The translations under genes were made by a program, and so were the position numbers. A stretch of DNA of 64,000 bases from Fusobacteria bacterium ZRK30 (lineage in GTDB: Bacteria; Fusobacteriota; Fusobacteriia; Fusobacteriales; Fusobacteriaceae). The notes beneath the pieces were generated by a model. The model saw only the letters and a list, made by a program, of their open reading frames with translations. It ran no database searches and was not told the origin of the DNA. Shown here piece after piece: positions 4,557-15,477 of this stretch. The stretch's first letter is position 1. Every line of letters starts with the position of its first letter. The stretch lies in NCBI GenBank assembly GCA_024628785.1, contig CP102405.1, forward strand, positions 2,294,001 through 2,358,000. The letters are read 5' to 3'.

Positions 4557-4590
4557 GTAAAAATCCCTCCTAAAATTAGGAGGGATTTAT
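4557..4590 (-). terminator. Intrinsic terminator after the NhaC-family gene
   Basis: A 12-13 bp stem (4561-4573 with 4576-4588, rich in CCCTCC/GGAGGG) has A residues to its left, which are U on the minus transcript. The T-rich right flank could also terminate plus-strand transcription. It separates the NhaC-family gene from the SSS symporter gene. Confidence 0.75.
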
Positions 4591-6037: not shown

Positions 6038-6074
6038 ACAAAAAAGAGCTATCGATAACGCTACCAATAACTCC
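6038..6074 (-). terminator. Riboswitch expression-platform terminator
   Basis: On the minus strand, a long GU-containing hairpin (6073 down to 6046, arms GAGTTATTGG and CGATAGCTC) is followed at once by six U residues (6045-6040). It lies between the lysine-riboswitch aptamer and the SD of the NhaC-family gene. That is the expected arrangement for ligand-induced premature termination. Confidence 0.8.
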
Positions 6075-6110
6075 AACAATAAAACTTAAATAAGGTCTAT
6101 GCTCAAAATC

Positions 6111-6291
6111 ATTTAATAGCACATCACCAATTTTATATGGTGACAGTCTTATGGGTATTCTCCATAATCCCAACACAAAGAATTCTGACTTTTTTCTTCG
6201 CATTTCGGCAAATTTACCTTTCATCTCAGGGTCAAAGCTTGTCATAACTAGCCTAAAATTACTTTTTAATATTTGCAACCTCTATCTAAAT
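6111..6291 (-). promoter_or_regulatory. Lysine riboswitch (L box) upstream of the NhaC-family gene
   Basis: The minus-strand leader has the L-box layout. A P1 stem (ATTTAGATAG at 6291-6282 with CTATTAAAT at 6119-6111) encloses the conserved core pieces AGAGGTTGC, AAAGTAA, GCCGAAATGCGAAG, TTGGGA and CTGTCACC in the expected order, within about 180 nucleotides. A terminator follows. The family is a lysine-binding aptamer that normally represses lysine synthesis or transport genes by termination. The motifs were recognised by eye; a covariance-model search would settle it. It lies directly after ornithine racemase, so it may give the transporter its own regulation within the ornithine operon. 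Confidence 0.82.
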
Positions 6292-6340
6292 TTTTCTTTT
6301 CTGAGAGTTATTCTATAATAATCTATTAACTTTGTCAAAT

Positions 6341-7405
6341 TTAATCAAATACCTTTTTCACATAGGGTGACGTGGTCAACTGTAAAAGAGATCCATAATC
6401 TAGCTTAAATTCCACGATATCTCCTACCTTATATTCCCTTTTTGAATCAGTTACATCCAACACCAAATGATCACTGCTGGCACCTAATATTATTAACTTT
6501 TCATCCATTGGTTCTAAATTAGACTGATCTACATCTTGTTTTCCAATAGCCAAAATAGCCCTTTTTCTCTTTCCTCTATCGACAAATACAGGTTTTTCTC
6601 CAAAAGCATTGAGTCCGATCTCCCCAACTGGATAAGATTGCTTTTCCTTTAACTCTATTATTTCTACTTCTAATTTTACACTATCATAGAAACAGCCCTC
6701 GAGATCTTTTCCATAAGCCGTTTCACGACCAAAGATAAGTGATTCCCCCAGCCTTAAGTTATTTATTTTAGGAGGCATGTTGTTTTTCCACAATAGATCC
6801 AAACTGCTGGAATTTCCCCCTGATATAATATTTAGCTTTAAATTATATTTTTCCTCTATTAAATCTGAAACTTTTTCTAATTGCCCTAAATTATCGAAAC
6901 TAGGAATAATTCCTCCGTAACACGTTAGATTCACACCTATTCCCTCTAATTTAATATTTTTCATAGAATTTATTTGTTCCATATACCTCTCTACATCTTC
7001 TGGCAGGATCCCCTCTCGAAGATCTCCTAATTCAAGCATCAGGATGATTCTATGGACTCTATACTGTTTGCCGGCCTCTTCATTCAAAAGAGCTATAGTA
7101 GATATTTCACTGTTTAAACTTATATCTACGTGTTTTATCACCTCTTTTATCTGAGATCTCATTGGCAAACGAATCATTATCTTGGGAACATCCAGGTTTT
7201 CATATTTTTTTAAATTTTCCACTCTAGAATCTCCTAAATATCTTACTCCTCCCTCTACCAATACCTTAGCTATCTCTATACTCCCTGAAAAAACCTTGGT
7301 TACTCCCACTACATCTATTTGGGATTCCTTGCATTTTTTTGTCAAAAATTTTACATTTTCTCCGATCTTACTTAGATCTACTACTACTCTTGGGTATTCA
7401 GTCAT
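6341..7405 (-). CDS. orr: Ornithine racemase (alanine-racemase-fold, PLP)
   Basis: This 354-residue enzyme converts L-ornithine to D-ornithine, the substrate of the aminomutase encoded by oraSE. It has an alanine-racemase N-terminal barrel with the PLP lysine in VVGVTKVFSG (Lys37). Further on are MLELGDLREG, SGGNSSSLD and a C-terminal domain containing GDIVEFKLDYGSLL. Length and motifs match the Orr family (YhfX-like racemases found in ornithine clusters) rather than the canonical Alr, which has a separate gene here. The start overlaps the stop of the chaperone gene by ATGA (7402-7405), showing tight coupling. The operon context makes the ornithine assignment strong. Confidence 0.9.
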   Translation of the reverse strand: MTEYPRVVVDLSKIGENVKFLTKKCKESQIDVVGVTKVFSGSIEIAKVLVEGGVRYLGDSRVENLKKYENLDVPKIMIRLPMRSQIKEVIKHVDISLNSEISTIALLNEEAGKQYRVHRIILMLELGDLREGILPEDVERYMEQINSMKNIKLEGIGVNLTCYGGIIPSFDNLGQLEKVSDLIEEKYNLKLNIISGGNSSSLDLLWKNNMPPKINNLRLGESLIFGRETAYGKDLEGCFYDSVKLEVEIIELKEKQSYPVGEIGLNAFGEKPVFVDRGKRKRAILAIGKQDVDQSNLEPMDEKLIILGASSDHLVLDVTDSKREYKVGDIVEFKLDYGSLLQLTTSPYVKKVFD

Positions 7406-8787
7406 AAAGTTTCCACCTCCTCTATTTTTAAACTTTTTTTCAACAATCTAACTGCTGATTCTTTATTATATTTTGAAAGGACTCCCAAAGAAGCCATAAT
7501 ATAATCATTATCTATCAATAATTTTGCCTCTGGCGTAGGCAGGAGTTTATCTCCCTTATTACTCATAGCTACTTTTTTTAAGATCTCTATTCTATTAGGT
7601 ATACGGGTTAACGCTCCCCCAGTCCCTATTATCCACTTAATACTGGTCAGATCTTTTCCCTCAGCCAGAGTTTTTTTAGTTTCACCAAAGAGATGTCTAT
7701 ATCCCCCAGCATGCCGATGAACCGACATAATCACTGCTTTTTCTGTCAAGATCTCTACTATTTTTATCTCCATTTCACTTTTAGGAATAGGAGGGAAATT
7801 CAAAAGATGCTCTGTCAATTCATCTTCTTCAACAGATAATTCCTTGGCTAAGTTTTTTTCCCCGACTATCTCAACTATATTTCTCATATTTACGTATACT
7901 CCTAGATCCCCCTCTACAGTTCTTTTGGCTACAGGTTCTGGAGAGATTAAAATCCTCGTTATCTCCTCACTGCCGTCAGTTACCGAGTGGATATCCGTAG
8001 TTGCTCCTCCCACATCTATAGTGACCAGATCTCCTATAACTTCTTTTAAGATCTTAGAGGATTCCATTACAGCTCCCGGCGTAGGTACTATAGGCCCGCT
8101 TACTATATCTCTTACCCTCTCCATCCCTGGAGCATGAATTATATGCTCTTCAAAAACATCTTGAATTACACGTCTTACAGGCTCTACATTTAACCGATCT
8201 ATTTTTGGATATACATTTTCTACTATTTTTAAAAGTTTTTCTTTCCCATAGTCCTCAAATATTAATTTTATCTCCTCACAATTCTGAATATTTCCTGCAT
8301 ATATTATAGGAGTATCCAAATCAAGTTTAGCTAGAAGTTCTGCATTGTATAGAGCTGTGTCCCGCTCACCATAATCCACTCCTCCAGCAAGTAAAATTAT
8401 ATTCGGTCTTATTTTTTCTATCTCCTTTAGATCTGTTCTTCTCAATTTTCCCGATGTTACCATATGAATGTTTGCTCCTGCTCCTAGTGCCGCTTCCTTT
8501 GCTGCTTTAGCTGTCATATCGTACACCAATCCATGAACAGTCATCTTCAAGCCCCCTGCTGCACTACTTGTAGCTAAGAACTCATCATATTCCAACTCTT
8601 TAATCCCCAGTTTTTCTTCTAGATCATATGTAGCATCCATAAGACCCAGATTAACATCCCCTTGATCTACCGTGGTAGGAGCTTGTCCCTGCCCTATAAA
8701 TTTTGGACTTTCTCCATTTAAATTTCCAAAGGCATTAACAACTGTTGTAGTACTTCCTATCTCTGCTACCAAAACATCTATTTTCAT
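7402..8787 (-). CDS. MutL/GlmL-like ATPase, probable aminomutase reactivating chaperone
   Basis: This 461-residue protein belongs to the actin-like ATPase group that includes MutL/GlmL, encoded beside the B12-dependent glutamate mutase. Visible signatures are the phosphate-1 loop VAEIGSTTTVV (residues about 7-17), SSAAGGLKMTV near 56, ILLAGGVDYG near 131, VTIDVGGATTDIHSV near 255 and IIGTGGALTRIPN near 390. In ornithine clusters such a gene accompanies oraE. The family role, inferred by analogy with diol dehydratase reactivases, is to replace damaged cobalamin on the mutase. It lies 183 bases after oraE and overlaps orr. It is not the DNA mismatch-repair MutL. Confidence 0.85.
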   Translation of the reverse strand: MKIDVLVAEIGSTTTVVNAFGNLNGESPKFIGQGQAPTTVDQGDVNLGLMDATYDLEEKLGIKELEYDEFLATSSAAGGLKMTVHGLVYDMTAKAAKEAALGAGANIHMVTSGKLRRTDLKEIEKIRPNIILLAGGVDYGERDTALYNAELLAKLDLDTPIIYAGNIQNCEEIKLIFEDYGKEKLLKIVENVYPKIDRLNVEPVRRVIQDVFEEHIIHAPGMERVRDIVSGPIVPTPGAVMESSKILKEVIGDLVTIDVGGATTDIHSVTDGSEEITRILISPEPVAKRTVEGDLGVYVNMRNIVEIVGEKNLAKELSVEEDELTEHLLNFPPIPKSEMEIKIVEILTEKAVIMSVHRHAGGYRHLFGETKKTLAEGKDLTSIKWIIGTGGALTRIPNRIEILKKVAMSNKGDKLLPTPEAKLLIDNDYIMASLGVLSKYNKESAVRLLKKSLKIEEVETL

Positions 8788-8893
8788 ATCTCTGCTCCTC
8801 TACCCTCTTTCTTTTGTGATATCTTCCTGGAATATCAAATTAAATATATTAAATACTCAACTTTAAATGGGAACCTCAAAGAAAGAAACCCAA

Positions 8894-8922
8894 GCAGTAA
8901 TTTTTATATTAAAACTACTGCT
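8894..8922 (-). other. Strong intercistronic hairpin between oraE and the chaperone gene
   Basis: GCAGTAA at 8894-8900 and TACTGC at about 8917-8922 form the base of a nearly perfect stem-loop, with an A/T-rich extension of the stem. No U-tract follows on the minus transcript, so it looks like an mRNA stability or processing element rather than a terminator. The 183-base gap holding it is the longest inside the operon after oraE. Confidence 0.5.
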
Positions 8923-8970
8923 GCAGGCCCCCTCCTATGAAGGGTAAAACATTTATTTAGAAAAGTAACT

Positions 8971-11172
8971 CTATTTTTCCATCATCTCTTTCTTTCTTTT
9001 TACCAAGAATGAAGCTACATTTACTCCCCTGTCGTTCTTTGAGAAACCTTCATCCATACCATTTTTTCTAGCTATTTCAGGGGTTACCTGAGTACCGCCA
9101 GCACAGATAATTATCTTATCTCTGATACCTTTTTCAATAGCTAATTCATGTAACTTTTTCATATTCTTATAGTGAATATCATCATGGGATATGATTGTAG
9201 AAGCTAAAACTACATCTGCATTTAATTCTACTGCTGCATCAATTAGTTTCTCACAAGGTACAGAAGTTCCTAAATATTCAACTTCCATTCCAAATTTTTC
9301 TACTCCTCCATGTTTTATATCTATAACTTCACGAAGTCCTACTGAATGTTCATCTTCTCCTACTGTTCCTGCCACTATCTTCATATCATATTTTTCTACT
9401 AATTCTCTGATCTCATCATCTGACATAACTTCTGCTTCTGGTGGTATTACTAAACTCTCTAGATCCAGATCAAATTCAACCTTTCCTTTTACCTGGATTC
9501 TAGTTCCCTCACTTATATGCATAACTTCAGAATGGATTACCTCTGGATTTGTCAGGTTCATTTTTTTAGCAAATTCAATAGCTGCAAATTCTGCTACCCT
9601 TTGACTTGTAGGCAGGAATAACTCTATCTGTACAGTACCGTCAGCCAGCCATTCTACCTCTGGTTTAATCTTTGATGTAGATCTATATTCCTCATTTTCT
9701 GCCATCCTTACATTTACGTTGTCTACATCATCTAATTCATCGATATATACAATCTTATCCGGGTCTTCAAATGTGCATCCACCGATTAAATCAGCTGGAT
9801 TTTCAGCTCCATATTGATCTATATTATTATTCCCAAAATGACCTGTTACAGGTGCCATATAGTCTTCATCTCTTGCGAATACTCTTCCAGCTCCTACTCC
9901 GCCATCTTTTTTCCTGCCTATTCCATCACCATTTTTCTCAGGATAATTACCGGAATCTACAAAGAATCCCTTCTCTACAGCTTCAAAATACCCACCTGTT
10001 TCCATCATCTCTTCCAGATAAAGTACAGCTCTTTCCTTTAATTCTCTTACCATTTTTGGAAGGTATCCGTCTTTTCTTATCTCTACCATCTCCAGTAACC
10101 CATCCAGCCCTACTAAAGTCTGTTTAGCTGTATCACAGGCCTCTATATTATATACATGCCAAGGTACATTTCTACCTTCGTCAGGTGTGATTGTAGATTG
10201 AATATCCGCACTTGTCAACCTAGAGATCATCATATTCATTACATGGGTAACTGTAGCTTCTCTAGATGATGAAGTGATATATTTTGTGTTCATCTGAGCT
10301 CTCATCTTATACTCTGTAAATAAATCTCTCAGAGCTACTGCATATGGCAGGTCAAATTTCATAGATGGTGCCGGTGCTGCTGTAGGAGGTACTGTAGATA
10401 AACATATATTTTCTTTCTTTATACCTGATTTATAAGAAAATATAGAATTAAGTCCATGCTGAACCATAAGTTCCGGCATTACCTTCCATGCATCTCTAGC
10501 TGTTGCATTGGCATTATGGGCTCCATCTATTTGAGCCATTTCAGCCCAGCCCATTATTTTTTTTGATTCTGCTGCATCTATAAATGATCTCACCATATTT
10601 ATATTTCTATAAAGTACATTGTATTGAGGATCTTGATGAGCTCCATTTACTCCCTCTTCTGCAAACATTACTGCTACGTCAGGTCCTGCTACTCCAGATA
10701 CATATGAATGGTAGTTTATTGGTCTTCCTACCTCTTCTTCTATCAGATCACAAGCTTTTCTCTGTGCTCTTACTTGCTTTCTCGTGATAGGTACTCCTCC
10801 AATTCCTTGTGGTGTCCCCTCTATCAAACCATCAAAATGAGATTGTCCAGCTGTTCTGATTACCATAAGATGATCTGCTCCATGCCATGCTGCCATCCTC
10901 ATCCTTCTGATATCATCTTCAAACCTTCCTGATGCTATCTCTGTTGTGATTACTTCTGCAGGTTGCGGGTCTAAATTATCAAAATATCTAGCTGCCGGGA
11001 TCCCTATAGAATTTTTTAATGGTTCTGAGCAGTCAGTAAATTCAAATGCTCCCATCTTTAAATTTTCTACTTTCTTTCTCCAAGTCCAGCCTCTTCTCTT
11101 GGGTCTGTAGTTTTCAAGGTCATTTAATATTTCTCTTATGTCCATTTTTTCAGTTGGTATTAATTTTTTCAT
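8971..11172 (-). CDS. oraE: D-ornithine 4,5-aminomutase, beta (catalytic) subunit
   Basis: This 733-residue enzyme converts D-ornithine to (2R,4S)-2,4-diaminopentanoate using adenosylcobalamin and PLP. A PLP-binding TIM barrel fills most of the first 500 residues and a Rossmann B12-binding domain follows (about 590-720). In that domain the DEHSVG motif gives the cobalt-ligand His609, and IDIKHGG gives the PLP lysine Lys620. Their 11-residue spacing is the same as His618/Lys629 of the Clostridium sticklandii enzyme. Its start codon overlaps the oraS stop (TAATG at 11172), with an SD (GGGAGG) upstream. It requires OraS. I am very confident of the identity. Confidence 0.97.
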   Translation of the reverse strand: MKKLIPTEKMDIREILNDLENYRPKRRGWTWRKKVENLKMGAFEFTDCSEPLKNSIGIPAARYFDNLDPQPAEVITTEIASGRFEDDIRRMRMAAWHGADHLMVIRTAGQSHFDGLIEGTPQGIGGVPITRKQVRAQRKACDLIEEEVGRPINYHSYVSGVAGPDVAVMFAEEGVNGAHQDPQYNVLYRNINMVRSFIDAAESKKIMGWAEMAQIDGAHNANATARDAWKVMPELMVQHGLNSIFSYKSGIKKENICLSTVPPTAAPAPSMKFDLPYAVALRDLFTEYKMRAQMNTKYITSSSREATVTHVMNMMISRLTSADIQSTITPDEGRNVPWHVYNIEACDTAKQTLVGLDGLLEMVEIRKDGYLPKMVRELKERAVLYLEEMMETGGYFEAVEKGFFVDSGNYPEKNGDGIGRKKDGGVGAGRVFARDEDYMAPVTGHFGNNNIDQYGAENPADLIGGCTFEDPDKIVYIDELDDVDNVNVRMAENEEYRSTSKIKPEVEWLADGTVQIELFLPTSQRVAEFAAIEFAKKMNLTNPEVIHSEVMHISEGTRIQVKGKVEFDLDLESLVIPPEAEVMSDDEIRELVEKYDMKIVAGTVGEDEHSVGLREVIDIKHGGVEKFGMEVEYLGTSVPCEKLIDAAVELNADVVLASTIISHDDIHYKNMKKLHELAIEKGIRDKIIICAGGTQVTPEIARKNGMDEGFSKNDRGVNVASFLVKRKKEMMEK

Positions 11173-11549
11173 TATTTTTTACCTCCCTTAAAGATTTCCA
11201 TAAGGGTATCCCAATGGTTCCCCTCTATCATCTCTTCCCCTGCTTGTCGGATAGAAATTTTCTTTTCTTCTGATACCTTATATACTAAGTGACCTACACC
11301 CTTGCCCATAAGTCCTCTATCTATTGCTCCGTCTACCAAAGGCTTAGCTTCTATACTTGAAAATCCCATTCTGAGAAGCACGGATCTCTCAATTGATGGT
11401 GTAGTATGGGTCTTAGCCAGATCTAACATTGGGTCCACTAATTTTTCTGCTAACTCCCAAAATCTATTTTTTAATTCTTCATCTGTTAAATTATGCAGAT
11501 GTTTTCTTCTTGTGGAGAAATCATCTTCTCTTTTTAAATATCCTTTCAT
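11172..11549 (-). CDS. oraS: D-ornithine 4,5-aminomutase, alpha (small) subunit
   Basis: This is the small helical partner of OraE, needed for activity and stability of the heterotetramer. I start it at the ATG at 11549, giving 125 residues. A strong SD (AGGGGGGAT) lies just upstream, and the usual OraS length is about 120; an upstream in-frame ATG at 11582 has no SD. Family features include KREDDFSTRRKHL at the N-terminus, FWELAEKLVDPML near 34, HTTPSIERSVLLRMGFSS near 50 and GKGVGHLVYKVS near 83. The stop overlaps the oraE start by one base. Confidence 0.95.
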   Translation of the reverse strand: MKGYLKREDDFSTRRKHLHNLTDEELKNRFWELAEKLVDPMLDLAKTHTTPSIERSVLLRMGFSSIEAKPLVDGAIDRGLMGKGVGHLVYKVSEEKKISIRQAGEEMIEGNHWDTLMEIFKGGKK

Positions 11550-11618
11550 CTTATCCCCCCTATTGCTATGGTTAAACTTCAAGGATAGCCATTTGGACTA
11601 CCTCTATTATTATTAGAT

Positions 11619-12473
11619 TTAATCTATCTTTTTTTCTATTAACTGAAGCAGTTCATCTACATATTCAGAAGTTTCTGCTTCCTTTTCATATATTGGATTA
11701 TATTCCACTATATCTATAGATGTTACAGATGCCGTATCTATCATCTCAGATATGAGGGTCTTCCCCATTTCACGACTAAGTCCTCCTGCAACAGGTGTTC
11801 CAACAGCTGTTATCTCTGCAGGATCTATCCCATCCAGATCAAAACTGATATGCAGGTTTCTACCTTTAAAAAACTCTTTTACCTCACCTAAGGCTTTTTC
11901 AAACCCCATCTCTGCTATCATCTTCCAGGTATAATTTTTGATTCCCAATTCATCGATTAATTTTTGTTCCTTCTCATCTATATCTCTCGTTCCAAATAAG
12001 ATTACATTTTCTTTTTTTACCTTAGTTCCATTGTAGAAACAATCTATCAATTTAGAATGTCCATGTCCTACAGATGTAGCTAACGGCATCCCATGTATAT
12101 GCCCTGTTCCACTTATCTCAGGTGTATTCATGTCTCCATGAGCATCCATCCATAATATACCGATCTCTTTTTCCTTGGCCACCCCGGCTATACTTCCTAT
12201 GGCTATAGCATGATCTCCTCCCAAACTAATAGGAAAATCTCCATCTTTTATTATCTTATTTACCCTCACAGCCAACTCTTCACAAGTTTTTGCTACTGTA
12301 TTCAGATATTTAGCTCCTTTTATGGAAAAATCTTCTTCCTGTCTCTCTACCTCTAAAACTTCTATCTTATCTCTATATTTTGGATATTTCTCTATAAAGT
12401 TATTTATACTAAATTCTAAACCACACCTATTGGCTCCAAAATTTAATGGTACCCCTATTATTTTTGTTTTCAA
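11619..12473 (-). CDS. rocF: Arginase (ureohydrolase family)
   Basis: This cytoplasmic manganese enzyme hydrolyses arginine to ornithine and urea, feeding the ornithine pathway it is embedded in. Metal-ligand motifs are intact: SLGGDHA, WMDAHGDMN, the SGTGHIHGMPLA substrate loop, and SFDLDGIDP. I choose the TTG at 12471-12473 as start (284 residues). It has an AAGGAG SD nine bases upstream and leads straight into KTKIIGVPLNFGANRCG, where family similarity begins. The in-frame ATG at 12509 has no SD and sits inside a duplicated piece of ortB. Agmatinase or another ureohydrolase is possible, but the loop and context favour arginase. Confidence 0.85.
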   Translation of the reverse strand: MKTKIIGVPLNFGANRCGLEFSINNFIEKYPKYRDKIEVLEVERQEEDFSIKGAKYLNTVAKTCEELAVRVNKIIKDGDFPISLGGDHAIAIGSIAGVAKEKEIGILWMDAHGDMNTPEISGTGHIHGMPLATSVGHGHSKLIDCFYNGTKVKKENVILFGTRDIDEKEQKLIDELGIKNYTWKMIAEMGFEKALGEVKEFFKGRNLHISFDLDGIDPAEITAVGTPVAGGLSREMGKTLISEMIDTASVTSIDIVEYNPIYEKEAETSEYVDELLQLIEKKID

Positions 12474-12512
12474 AATATTCAGCTCCTTAATTTTTTTATT
12501 TATTGTCATTTT

Positions 12513-12600
12513 GGTCTCAAGAGCAATATAATTGAGTTCTTCAGCAGTAAATTCACTGCTATCAGAATTTTCTTTACCTTCTTTTTTTACATAATTTTTA
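12513..12600 (-). repeat. Decayed partial duplication of the ortB 3' end
   Basis: The minus strand here encodes SDSSEFTAEELNYIALET, closely matching the OrtB C-terminus SDSRQFTDEELSYIALET found about 100 bases upstream. Nucleotide identity looks to be roughly 70-75 percent. The copy begins at the ortB stop and runs in frame into the region upstream of the arginase start. It is not needed by either gene. Confidence 0.75.
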
Positions 12601-13995
12601 TTTTAATCTTCCTTTTACTTCTTCTAGTGTTAAGTTTGTCTCAAGGGCAATATAGCTTAGTTCTTCATCAGTAAATTGTCTGCTGTCAGATTTTTTGTTA
12701 ACCATATTTTTTATATACGATCTTCTTATCTTATCCATATCTAAATCGATAGCTTTTATCATATTTGGATGTTCCGGTAATATTATACTCTTCCCAGGTA
12801 CTTCATCTCTTGGGTCACCAAAATGCAGATCTATTCCATTATCCCTTGCAAAGGATAACTGTGGCTGAATATGCTTCCCTGCACCTGTATACTCTGTTTC
12901 CTGTACTACTATTATCTGCTCTTTATCCATCTCCTGGGCTATGGAAAAAGCTGCTGCTAAAGATGTATTCCCTGCCGGTCCCCTTTCGAGCCCTTCTAAC
13001 TGAGCCAGAGATTCTGTCATATAAAATACTTCTCCCTGAGTTATCGTTACATATCTATCCATATATCTAAGAGGTCTGGCTGCCGATCTGGGTACATCTG
13101 ATCTGTCTGGATTAGTTGTAAATGGTATCCCAAACCCAGTATGTCCTGTTGTAAATGATTTCTTATTAAAATCGCTGTCCGATGCCATATGCAGTCCCTT
13201 TAAATTTACACTTGCTCCTACTACTTTTATACCTTCTGCCCCTGCTTTTATAATTCCACGGGCAGTTCCAGTAAGATTTCCTCCTCCTGCATTGGTACAC
13301 ACCACTACATCAGGTTGTTTACCGGTTTTTTCAACTATCTGCTCTACCAATTCCGATCCCAGTGTCTCTACCCCTGCTATACCAAAGGGAGTATAGAGTG
13401 AAGCATTAAAATATCCTGTTTCTTCCAGTAAATTTAGGAATGAATAAAATAATTCAGGTCCTACAGTCAATTGAACTACCTCAGCCCCATATGCCTCACA
13501 TTTTCTGGCTTTTTCTACAATTTCAGGCTGACCTTTTCCATTACTGTCATAGCACTCCTGCACTATTATACACTTTAACCCCAGCATAGCTGCCTGAGAT
13601 GCTACTGCGGCTCCATAGTTTCCGGAAGTTGCAGCAATAACTCCTTTATATCCCAGCTTTTTAGCATGATATACTGCTGTGGCAGCACGTCTGGCTTTAA
13701 AACTTCCAGATGGATTAGATGCCTCATCTTTTAAGAATATTCTGGCTCCCTTTCCAGCCGGGGCCATTTTTCTGGCTAAATTAGTTAAATTTCTGAGTTC
13801 ATATATAGGAGTATTTCCTACTCCGGTTTCACCCTGTATTTTTTTTATCTCTTCCAATGAATACCCAGCTTCTCTCATCATTGCTTCATAGTCAAACTCT
13901 ATCCCTTCCTTCTCAAAGGTATTATAATCTATTCCTACAGCTTTTTTCATTATCTCTGTCTTTCTAGACATCACAGCATTATAACTTTTATCCAT
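12598..13995 (-). CDS. ortB: 2-amino-4-oxopentanoate thiolase, PLP beta subunit
   Basis: With OrtA, this protein cleaves 2-amino-4-oxopentanoate with CoA to acetyl-CoA and D-alanine. It is a fold-type II PLP protein resembling threonine synthase or cysteine synthase. The PLP lysine lies in NPSGSFKARRA (near 97), the serine/glycine loop in ATSGNYGAAVA, and the phosphate-binding glycines in CTNAGGGNLTG. The start at 13995 (465 residues) is chosen over an upstream ATG because GAGGGGAAATA lies immediately before it and it overlaps the ortA stop as TAATG. It is followed by the decayed copy of its own 3' end. Confidence 0.95.
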   Translation of the reverse strand: MDKSYNAVMSRKTEIMKKAVGIDYNTFEKEGIEFDYEAMMREAGYSLEEIKKIQGETGVGNTPIYELRNLTNLARKMAPAGKGARIFLKDEASNPSGSFKARRAATAVYHAKKLGYKGVIAATSGNYGAAVASQAAMLGLKCIIVQECYDSNGKGQPEIVEKARKCEAYGAEVVQLTVGPELFYSFLNLLEETGYFNASLYTPFGIAGVETLGSELVEQIVEKTGKQPDVVVCTNAGGGNLTGTARGIIKAGAEGIKVVGASVNLKGLHMASDSDFNKKSFTTGHTGFGIPFTTNPDRSDVPRSAARPLRYMDRYVTITQGEVFYMTESLAQLEGLERGPAGNTSLAAAFSIAQEMDKEQIIVVQETEYTGAGKHIQPQLSFARDNGIDLHFGDPRDEVPGKSIILPEHPNMIKAIDLDMDKIRRSYIKNMVNKKSDSRQFTDEELSYIALETNLTLEEVKGRLK

Positions 13996-14300
13996 TATTT
14001 CCCCTCCCCGCAAAAAAGTAGTTCCTTCAGGGTTTTTCCTATCTGTAAAATTTCAGGTACATGGTTTCCATAGTTGTGTTTATGGTTAGGATGGATTTCC
14101 ACCAATTTTCCGCTAACCTTTCTTCCTACTATCGTTTCTATATCTGCCATCTCTCCTACTGCAGTATCTTCCAATAAAAATCCCTTTATCCACATCTCCA
14201 ACGGAACCTTTTTAGTATCCTCCGGTATTTGAGGAGCTCTATCTTTTGGCTCCAATACTATGTTGTAGACCATTACCCAGTCACCTTTTTTAGCAATCAT
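13995..14300 (-). CDS. ortA: 2-amino-4-oxopentanoate thiolase, alpha subunit
   Basis: This 101-residue small subunit works with OrtB. Recognisable features are GDWVMVYNIVLEPKDRAPQIPEDT at the N-terminus, KGFLLEDTAVGE in the middle, and the conserved NHKHNYGNHVPE near the C-terminus. The start at 14300 is preceded by GGGAGGGAGAGTT, a strong SD, and gives the usual family length. An upstream ATG at 14321 lacks one. The stop overlaps the ortB start. Identity is certain from the order ord-ortA-ortB-oraS-oraE. Confidence 0.95.
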   Translation of the reverse strand: MIAKKGDWVMVYNIVLEPKDRAPQIPEDTKKVPLEMWIKGFLLEDTAVGEMADIETIVGRKVSGKLVEIHPNHKHNYGNHVPEILQIGKTLKELLFCGEGK

Positions 14301-14418
14301 AACTCTCCCTCCCATTCGCATTTTACAAGATCAGATTGAAAAACTAACTCCTTTATTCTGGTTTAGTTTTTCAATCTAGGTAAAAATTCTAATTCTTGAT
14401 CTTAATTTTTAGTTTTCA

Positions 14419-15477
14419 CTAATTAAGTTCTACCTCTATCATATCCCTATAATCTCCTACTATACATCTAGGGATAGGCAGATCAATCATTGTTTTTAAT
14501 CCAGGTCTGGAGTTTATAATTTGCGGTATCATGTTGATACACATCGCTATAGTTCCTATCCCTCCGTCTATCTCAGGAGTAATCGCCATATTGACATTAG
14601 GAGTTCCAGTCAATGTAATATAGTCACCTGTTTCCACTCCTCCTAATTGTGGTTCTATTTGTTGCGGATGAACCATCTCTACTTTCTTCTCACCATCTAC
14701 GTATCCATCTCCTAGCATAGAGCAACCAGCTACGTATCCTGCATCCACTTTAATATACTGTGTTTCACGAGGAACATTTGTCACTATAGGAGCCATAGAA
14801 GTTTTTAACGGCCCGTCTAATTTCCATCCTACTGCATCTGTCATCATATTTACAGATTCTTCAAACCCAACATGTCCTGCCAAAGTTCCCGCCTTATCTT
14901 GCTCTATAAACTCTTCCTTACTAAGCCCTACTCCCTGCTCCTCCATAACTGCATGACCAAATGGAGATAAACTATTTATTCTCTCTGATTTTATATGTGT
15001 AAGATCTGTCATAGCTCCTGTCAATGTCAATACCAATAGGTCCATCATAAGTCCTGGATTTATCCCTGTTCCCAGTATTGATACACCATTTTCTTTGGCT
15101 ATTCTATCTAATTCCAAAGCTTCTTTCGGGCTCTGTGCCTTTGGATATGACATCTCTTCTGCTGTAGATATTACATTTATCTTCTTTTCTAAAACTAACT
15201 TTAGTCTAGGAAATGCTTTTTTTACAAATGAATCTGTGGCACACAAACACACATCACAAGACTTTTCTTTCAATACCTCATCTATATTTCCATTTATATA
15301 AACCGGAGTTCTATCTCCCTTATTTAAACCTAAAACCTCATGCATCTCTTTATCTACTCTGTCTGGATGAAGGTCGCATACACCTACAATCTCTATCCCT
15401 TTTTTGTTCAGGAGTGCCTTAGCCATCCCACTTCCCATTGCTCCAAATCCCCATATTGCTACCTTAATGTTTCTCAT
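14419..15477 (-). CDS. ord: 2,4-diaminopentanoate dehydrogenase
   Basis: This 352-residue NAD(P)-dependent enzyme oxidatively deaminates (2R,4S)-2,4-diaminopentanoate to 2-amino-4-oxopentanoate with ammonia release. The N-terminal Rossmann motif is VAIWGFGAMGSGMA (residues 6-19), followed by a dihydrodipicolinate-reductase-like fold with GTGINPGLMMDLLVL (near 137) and GTPNVNMAITPEIDGG near the end. The SD (AAGGGGGT) is close to the ATG. It is the second gene after the promoter, 30 bases downstream of alr and about 118 bases upstream of ortA. Length and motifs agree with the family. Confidence 0.95.
   Translation of the reverse strand: MRNIKVAIWGFGAMGSGMAKALLNKKGIEIVGVCDLHPDRVDKEMHEVLGLNKGDRTPVYINGNIDEVLKEKSCDVCLCATDSFVKKAFPRLKLVLEKKINVISTAEEMSYPKAQSPKEALELDRIAKENGVSILGTGINPGLMMDLLVLTLTGAMTDLTHIKSERINSLSPFGHAVMEEQGVGLSKEEFIEQDKAGTLAGHVGFEESVNMMTDAVGWKLDGPLKTSMAPIVTNVPRETQYIKVDAGYVAGCSMLGDGYVDGEKKVEMVHPQQIEPQLGGVETGDYITLTGTPNVNMAITPEIDGGIGTIAMCINMIPQIINSRPGLKTMIDLPIPRCIVGDYRDMIEVELN

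Follow-up and report, generated by a model that had tools for sequence, protein, structure and literature searches.

A lysine riboswitch in front of the NhaC-family transporter gene that follows an ornithine operon in Fusobacteria bacterium ZRK30

The ornithine operon and the element between orr and nhaC

The stretch of DNA analysed as a whole, here called the window, comprises 64,000 nucleotides of Fusobacteria bacterium ZRK30 (contig CP102405.1, positions 2,294,001 to 2,358,000). We judged the genus to be Psychrilyobacter on the strength of a named relative that has a protein of 91% identity and was also found among genomes of the same genus. On the minus strand lies an ornithine operon with orr at its end, followed by a gene of the NhaC family, nhaC (Table 1). 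NCBIfam matches to OrtA, OrtB, OraE, Or-4 and Orr bear out the ornithine context given in an earlier, sequence-only reading of this DNA. oraS had no NCBIfam match and was named by position and size, as was ord, which lies outside the NCBIfam scan. An arginase-like gene (216.2 bits, just under the NCBIfam cut-off of 227.6) is found at window positions 11619-12509 between oraS and ortB; since it lies inside the operon, the latter may start from arginine. In genome G076, a further orr-arg-alr set lies close by (L157), and in a relative, locus L159 (G055:C22) keeps alr-orr-nhaC though the ornithine aminomutase operon is not at that place; G082, apparently an identical assembly to G055, has no OraE over the cut-off.

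Table 1. Features at the end of the ornithine operon, in window coordinates
Feature	Position	Strand	Evidence
Bidirectional terminator, nhaC / next gene	4561..4588	.	12-pair stem listed on both strands
nhaC, NhaC-family transporter, 469 aa	4596..6005	-	TIGR00931 494.9 bits (cut-off 370); PF03553 213.5 bits
Intrinsic terminator hairpin, then U run	6045..6074	-	13 pairs, loop of 4; predicted -13.9 kcal/mol
P1 3' strand, alternative antiterminator start	6110..6122	-	pairs with 6067-6058, 10/10 pairs standard; helix extends over entire terminator 5' arm
Lysine riboswitch aptamer (L-box)	6109..6292	-	RF00168, 101.4 bits, E 8.2e-26, model 1-182 of 182; 21/22 T. maritima core positions
Promoter TTGACA-17-TAGAAT	6310..6338	-	11/12 consensus matches, best of 17 in region; starts two bases past orr stop
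orr, ornithine racemase	6341..7405	-	NF040742 505.1 bits
or-4, oraE, oraS, arginase-like, ortB, ortA, ord	7402..15477	-	NCBIfam for or-4, oraE, ortB, ortA

An Rfam scan of the whole 64-kb window returned RF00168 (Lysine) as the sole match at gathering thresholds, on the minus strand between orr and nhaC, and at 101.4 bits against a gathering cut-off of 30. This covariance search confirms the lysine riboswitch that the earlier reading had placed here at 6038-6291, a span covering both the aptamer (6292-6109) and the terminator, a 13-pair hairpin with a U run (6074-6045). In the five-way junction core and the ligand pocket, 21 of the 22 named positions carry the same base in the window as in the crystallised aptamer of T. 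maritima, and four orthologues agree with the window at the named core positions. The T. maritima sequence used agrees at all 22 positions named in PMC3764141. Among 13 matches of a model built here, changes on both sides were counted in 29 of 47 pairs, a number reached by none of 500 shuffles, in an alignment that is model-fitted and so biased in this direction. A possible L2-L3 kissing loop of only four pairs (UGAC in L2, GUCA in L3) was read by eye in the window and the four orthologues. Judged by its sequence, the element is a canonical lysine riboswitch, ordinary as an RNA, and would bind lysine. Lysine riboswitches before NhaC genes have already been published, and what is unusual here is only the place.

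Upstream of the nhaC ATG (6005), which is preceded by AGGAGGG, the frame is open for 92 codons from stop to stop, or 91 codons from a TTG at 6278. In five relatives keeping the leader or part of it, the open stretch is only 14 (L195), 7 (L196), 15 (L076), 15 (L231) and 6 (L077) codons long; counted from the first aligned residue, it amounts to 34 codons in L078, 10 in L199 and 8 in L200. NCBIfam matches to the long frame begin at residue 97. All 92 codons are open in the window copy alone, and a protein-coding extension was rejected, since a stop follows after 6-15 codons in the five relatives named first, in agreement with the earlier view that these codons are not protein.

The genome has five L-boxes, located before lysC-asd-dapA-dapB-dapD, dapF, nhaC578 (a second NhaC-type transporter of 578 aa), the lysine-fermentation genes kal-kce-kdd-kamA, and nhaC; some of these gene names are presumptive readings of the sequences, others come from NCBIfam or Pfam. 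Across eight Psychrilyobacter genomes, 29 L-box matches were found, 12 of them before NhaC-type genes (six nhaC578 and six nhaC, the latter including the window copy, assigned from the window itself, and the shortened L328). The others precede lysC (4), dapF (4), kal (8, counting a tandem pair ahead of a single gene) and, once, what we take to be lysA. The tandem pair stands in a Psychrilyobacter relative (G055:C170:21-135 and 243-421; L332, L327), its first member being partial at 41.1 bits. Divergent L-box pairs about 130 bases apart occur in two genomes of the same family (G016:C1:919565-920046, G071:C1:2748807-2749287). The other L-boxes of the window genome are not uniformly canonical: among the five, that of kal (L009:5159-5340; C2:2117158-2117339) has diverged furthest (74.4 bits), with departures at the conserved sites 23, 28, 69 and 115. 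Its sign may be reversed (ON), as PMC5584792 suggests for catabolic genes.

Promoter, terminator and predicted switching

The computed promoter recurs with identical 17-base spacing and at an identical distance to P1 in L195, L196, L076, L231 and L077, that is, in all five tested relatives which retain the 5' side of P1. A conserved promoter just past the orr stop argues that nhaC is, as predicted from these signals, a separate transcription unit.

The leader is further predicted to contain an expression platform with a terminator and a competing antiterminator. Pairing of the P1 3' strand with the terminator 5' arm was computed at -13.9 kcal/mol in the window, a value reached by one of 300 shuffles, and in the four orthologues 0, 0, 4 and 0 of 300 shuffles were as low. 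Such an arrangement is the common one in lysine-OFF switches. An equivalent layout of different sequence is present in the leaders of nhaC578 (0/300) and dapF (2/300) of the same genome; for the lysC leader, 31 of 300 shuffles were as low, and the kal leader is without such complementarity (110/300). Among clostridial nhaC leaders, complementarity was found in L107, L278, L285 and L100 (0-4 of 300 shuffles), was weaker at L098, L104 and L106 (14-18 of 300) and was absent at L102 (138/300) and L105 (176/300), and a search by script found no terminator at the L103 leader.

In transcripts still too short to hold the complete terminator, the antiterminator is predicted to beat P1 by 2.3-4.8 kcal/mol without ligand, and therefore ligand would be needed for termination. 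In the full-length leader the two states are nearly equal (-57.6 kcal/mol for the antiterminator, -57.9 for P1 plus terminator). The unconstrained minimum-energy fold (-68.9 kcal/mol) is a third structure, in which the linker is paired to the 5' strand of P1 and the terminator hairpin is present, so the OFF sign is a supported inference rather than a demonstration. In the proposed mechanism, transcription would start at nhaC's own promoter directly past orr. When lysine is scarce, the P1 3' strand would pair with the terminator 5' arm and RNA polymerase would continue into nhaC; with lysine bound, P1 would be held, the terminator would form and transcription would stop. nhaC would hence be made when internal lysine is low, and transcripts reading through from the ornithine operon should stop at the same terminator.

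Relatives of nhaC and the likely substrate

The window nhaC is an NhaC-superfamily gene under L-box control, as specified for LysW. In PMC5584792 and PMC11477304, L-boxes (RF00168) upstream of NhaC-superfamily genes (lysW) are associated with lysine transport, and these systems share with the window the aptamer family, the transporter superfamily and a terminator-type platform. They differ in the position of the window L-box, which separates orr from nhaC where an ornithine operon ends, and in that the window NhaC belongs to a clade separate from the clostridial L-box NhaC proteins. PMC11477304 states that the function of NhaC under an L-box is still unknown. Against the ArcD arginine/ornithine antiporter model NF052307, the window protein scores 428.8 bits, below the cut-off of 650, which two clostridial ornithine-operon NhaC proteins also miss (422.3 and 406.2 bits). 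A search for a solved structural relative of the transporter found none.

Of 80 named loci whose NhaC genes are the nearest relatives, ten have an L-box upstream of nhaC (L076, L077 (partial), L098, L100, L102, L103, L104, L105, L106 and L107); at L095 it is located downstream of nhaC, before another gene. The relatives without an L-box include Romboutsia and Faecalimicrobium copies that immediately follow kamDE or kdd, or lie close to kal. Those in kam/kal/kdd operons (L086, L088, L090, L091) belong to the same NhaC subfamily, are 59-60% identical to the window protein and share with it a context of cationic amino-acid fermentation, but they lack an L-box and accompany the lysine rather than the ornithine pathway.

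For Clostridiales, PMC6615313 describes an ord-ortBA-oraSEF-orr-nhaC operon under sigma-54/OrdR, with the same terminal orr-nhaC order as in the window. A first set of clostridial ornithine operons (L212-L228, of which L220 stops short of orr) did not reveal nhaC. In a survey of 70 genomes from the family of Romboutsia lituseburensis (G090), 31 had Orr over the cut-off. In nine of the 70, nhaC is the next gene after orr and has the same orientation (G130, G142, G152, G158, with only a fragment of orr where the contig ends, G160, G164, G168, G171 and G173); in three it follows within about 4 kb (G141, G150, G167), and in G134, orr and nhaC are convergent neighbours. An L-box search was negative in the 13 clostridial orr-linked nhaC loci (L292-L304) and in seven further nhaC loci (L305-L311). 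The clostridial operons thus differ from the window in lacking an L-box at L292-L304, in having an NhaC of another clade and in the arginase-like gene, which lies inside the window operon.

The clades were taken from an NhaC tree of 83 rows (98 less 15 duplicates), a quick search with long-branch warnings. kam/kal-linked rows (7), Peptostreptococcaceae L-box rows (16) and an orr clade (20, of which 13 are orr-linked) form three separate supported clades, and two Alkalithermobacter L-box rows (L102, L105) are placed apart again. The Psychrilyobacter rows fall outside all three, as well as outside the larger clade that holds them, and group with L109, L079, L082, L101, L084, L081, L085 and L108 (SH-aLRT 99). 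In this quick-search tree with its long-branch warnings, orthology of the window nhaC with the clostridial ornithine-operon nhaC was rejected. The placement outside all three clades argues that Psychrilyobacter, as reconstructed from sequence, reached the orr-nhaC neighbourhood and the L-box each independently. These independent gains are the main reason why we think that the NhaC subfamily handles cationic amino acids generally.

A serious, if less favoured, possibility is that nhaC encodes a LysW-type lysine transporter which has its own lysine switch and stands behind the ornithine operon by chance, as the earlier reading had considered when it called the transporter only physically attached. 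The own promoter, which is conserved, and the own terminator would make nhaC monocistronic, the published association of L-box and NhaC concerns lysine transport (PMC5584792, PMC11477304), and NhaC relatives sit in lysine-fermentation operons. The independence in transcription is supported, but the orr-nhaC pair speaks against a chance neighbourhood: it persists without an L-box in L199 and L200, and the ornithine operons of clostridia gained it on their own (nhaC directly behind orr in 9 of 70 genomes), a coincidence that one would not expect to recur. Since the pair arose separately in clostridia and occurs without a riboswitch, a functional tie to ornithine is suggested.

Less probable by some distance is that the protein acts simply in pH control, as an Na+/H+ antiporter, with lysine only as a proxy. 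The TIGR00931 score for NhaC is above its cut-off, and Na+/H+ antiport is raised in PMC11477304 for L-box-controlled NhaC. However, the subfamily has three separate clades, each with a link to cationic amino acids (through kam/kal, the L-box or the ornithine operon), and NhaC-type arginine/ornithine exchange has been reported for Halobacterium salinarum (as cited in PMC5300872). The nhaC product is probably a carrier of cationic amino acids, lysine and ornithine, that would be shut off by lysine; a transporter of both under lysine control fits best. Overall, we consider it likely that the element is a canonical lysine riboswitch turning its gene OFF via transcription termination, with the nhaC product probably a transporter or exchanger of cationic amino acids (lysine, ornithine).

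History of the leader in Psychrilyobacter

Intact nhaC leaders are present in the window, L195, L196/L156, L076/L198 and L231/L201. The genome of L077 has a second copy, L229, where the start of an L-box lies behind orr at a contig end. In the L077 leader itself, P4, P5 and the 3' strand of P1 are gone, but terminator and promoter remain. Before a second nhaC copy at L078:8840-9158, with no orr nearby, lies a degenerate L-box relic with broken core motifs and a recognisable terminator, which aligns above all of 300 shuffles. No L-box trace was detected by alignment in L199 and L200 (54 and 110 of 300 shuffles as high); in both, nhaC follows orr despite the missing L-box. Of the Psychrilyobacter rows, L200, from an assembly (G115) that is 76% complete, branches deepest in the DNA tree (98/98); the protein tree gives no firm order. 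L199 and L078 are not resolved against the other six rows, and the forks of the aptamer RNA tree are weak. Psychrilyobacter thus offers a natural series of one leader: intact, deleted, degenerate and absent.

The window terminator aligns with the nhaC578 terminator better than all of 1000 shuffles; for eight other leaders (three of the same genome, five clostridial), 25-721 of 1000 shuffles did as well. This likeness hints that the leader may have been copied inside the genome. As the L-box-free orr-nhaC pair of L200 is also the deepest, a bolder and less likely reading is that an exchanger of the ornithine operon was joined to orr first and gained its lysine riboswitch later, probably as a copy of the nhaC578 leader, so that lysine would gate ornithine exchange. 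Literature on Psychrilyobacter riboswitches, ornithine or NhaC lysine transport yielded nothing on this locus in titles and abstract openings of incomplete coverage. The relic in L078, the large deletion in L077 and the absence in L199 and L200 would fit a decaying, non-functional riboswitch, a very improbable reading given that the window, L195, L196/L156, L076 and L231 keep core, terminator, complementarity and promoter.

Lysine riboswitches are not known to accept ornithine. That the aptamer has switched its preference to ornithine, as had also been proposed, is equally hard to credit: the host operon degrades ornithine, and junction bases 161 and 162, which adjoin the pocket floor, differ from T. 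maritima in the window and the four orthologues, but all remaining named pocket positions are unchanged, the single change in the named core (A162 to U) falls on a variable site (A 27, U 6 and G 7 among 40 other L-boxes; G in the lysC and nhaC578 leaders of the same genome), and an ornithine OFF switch makes poor sense on an ornithine-operon transporter. With 21 of 22 positions matching, an ornithine-specific aptamer is therefore unsupported and was rejected.

For the family, the locus joins in one gene the L-box and the ornithine operon, contexts which are otherwise apart in the NhaC subfamily. The locus is a moderately useful guide to what NhaC proteins under L-boxes transport.
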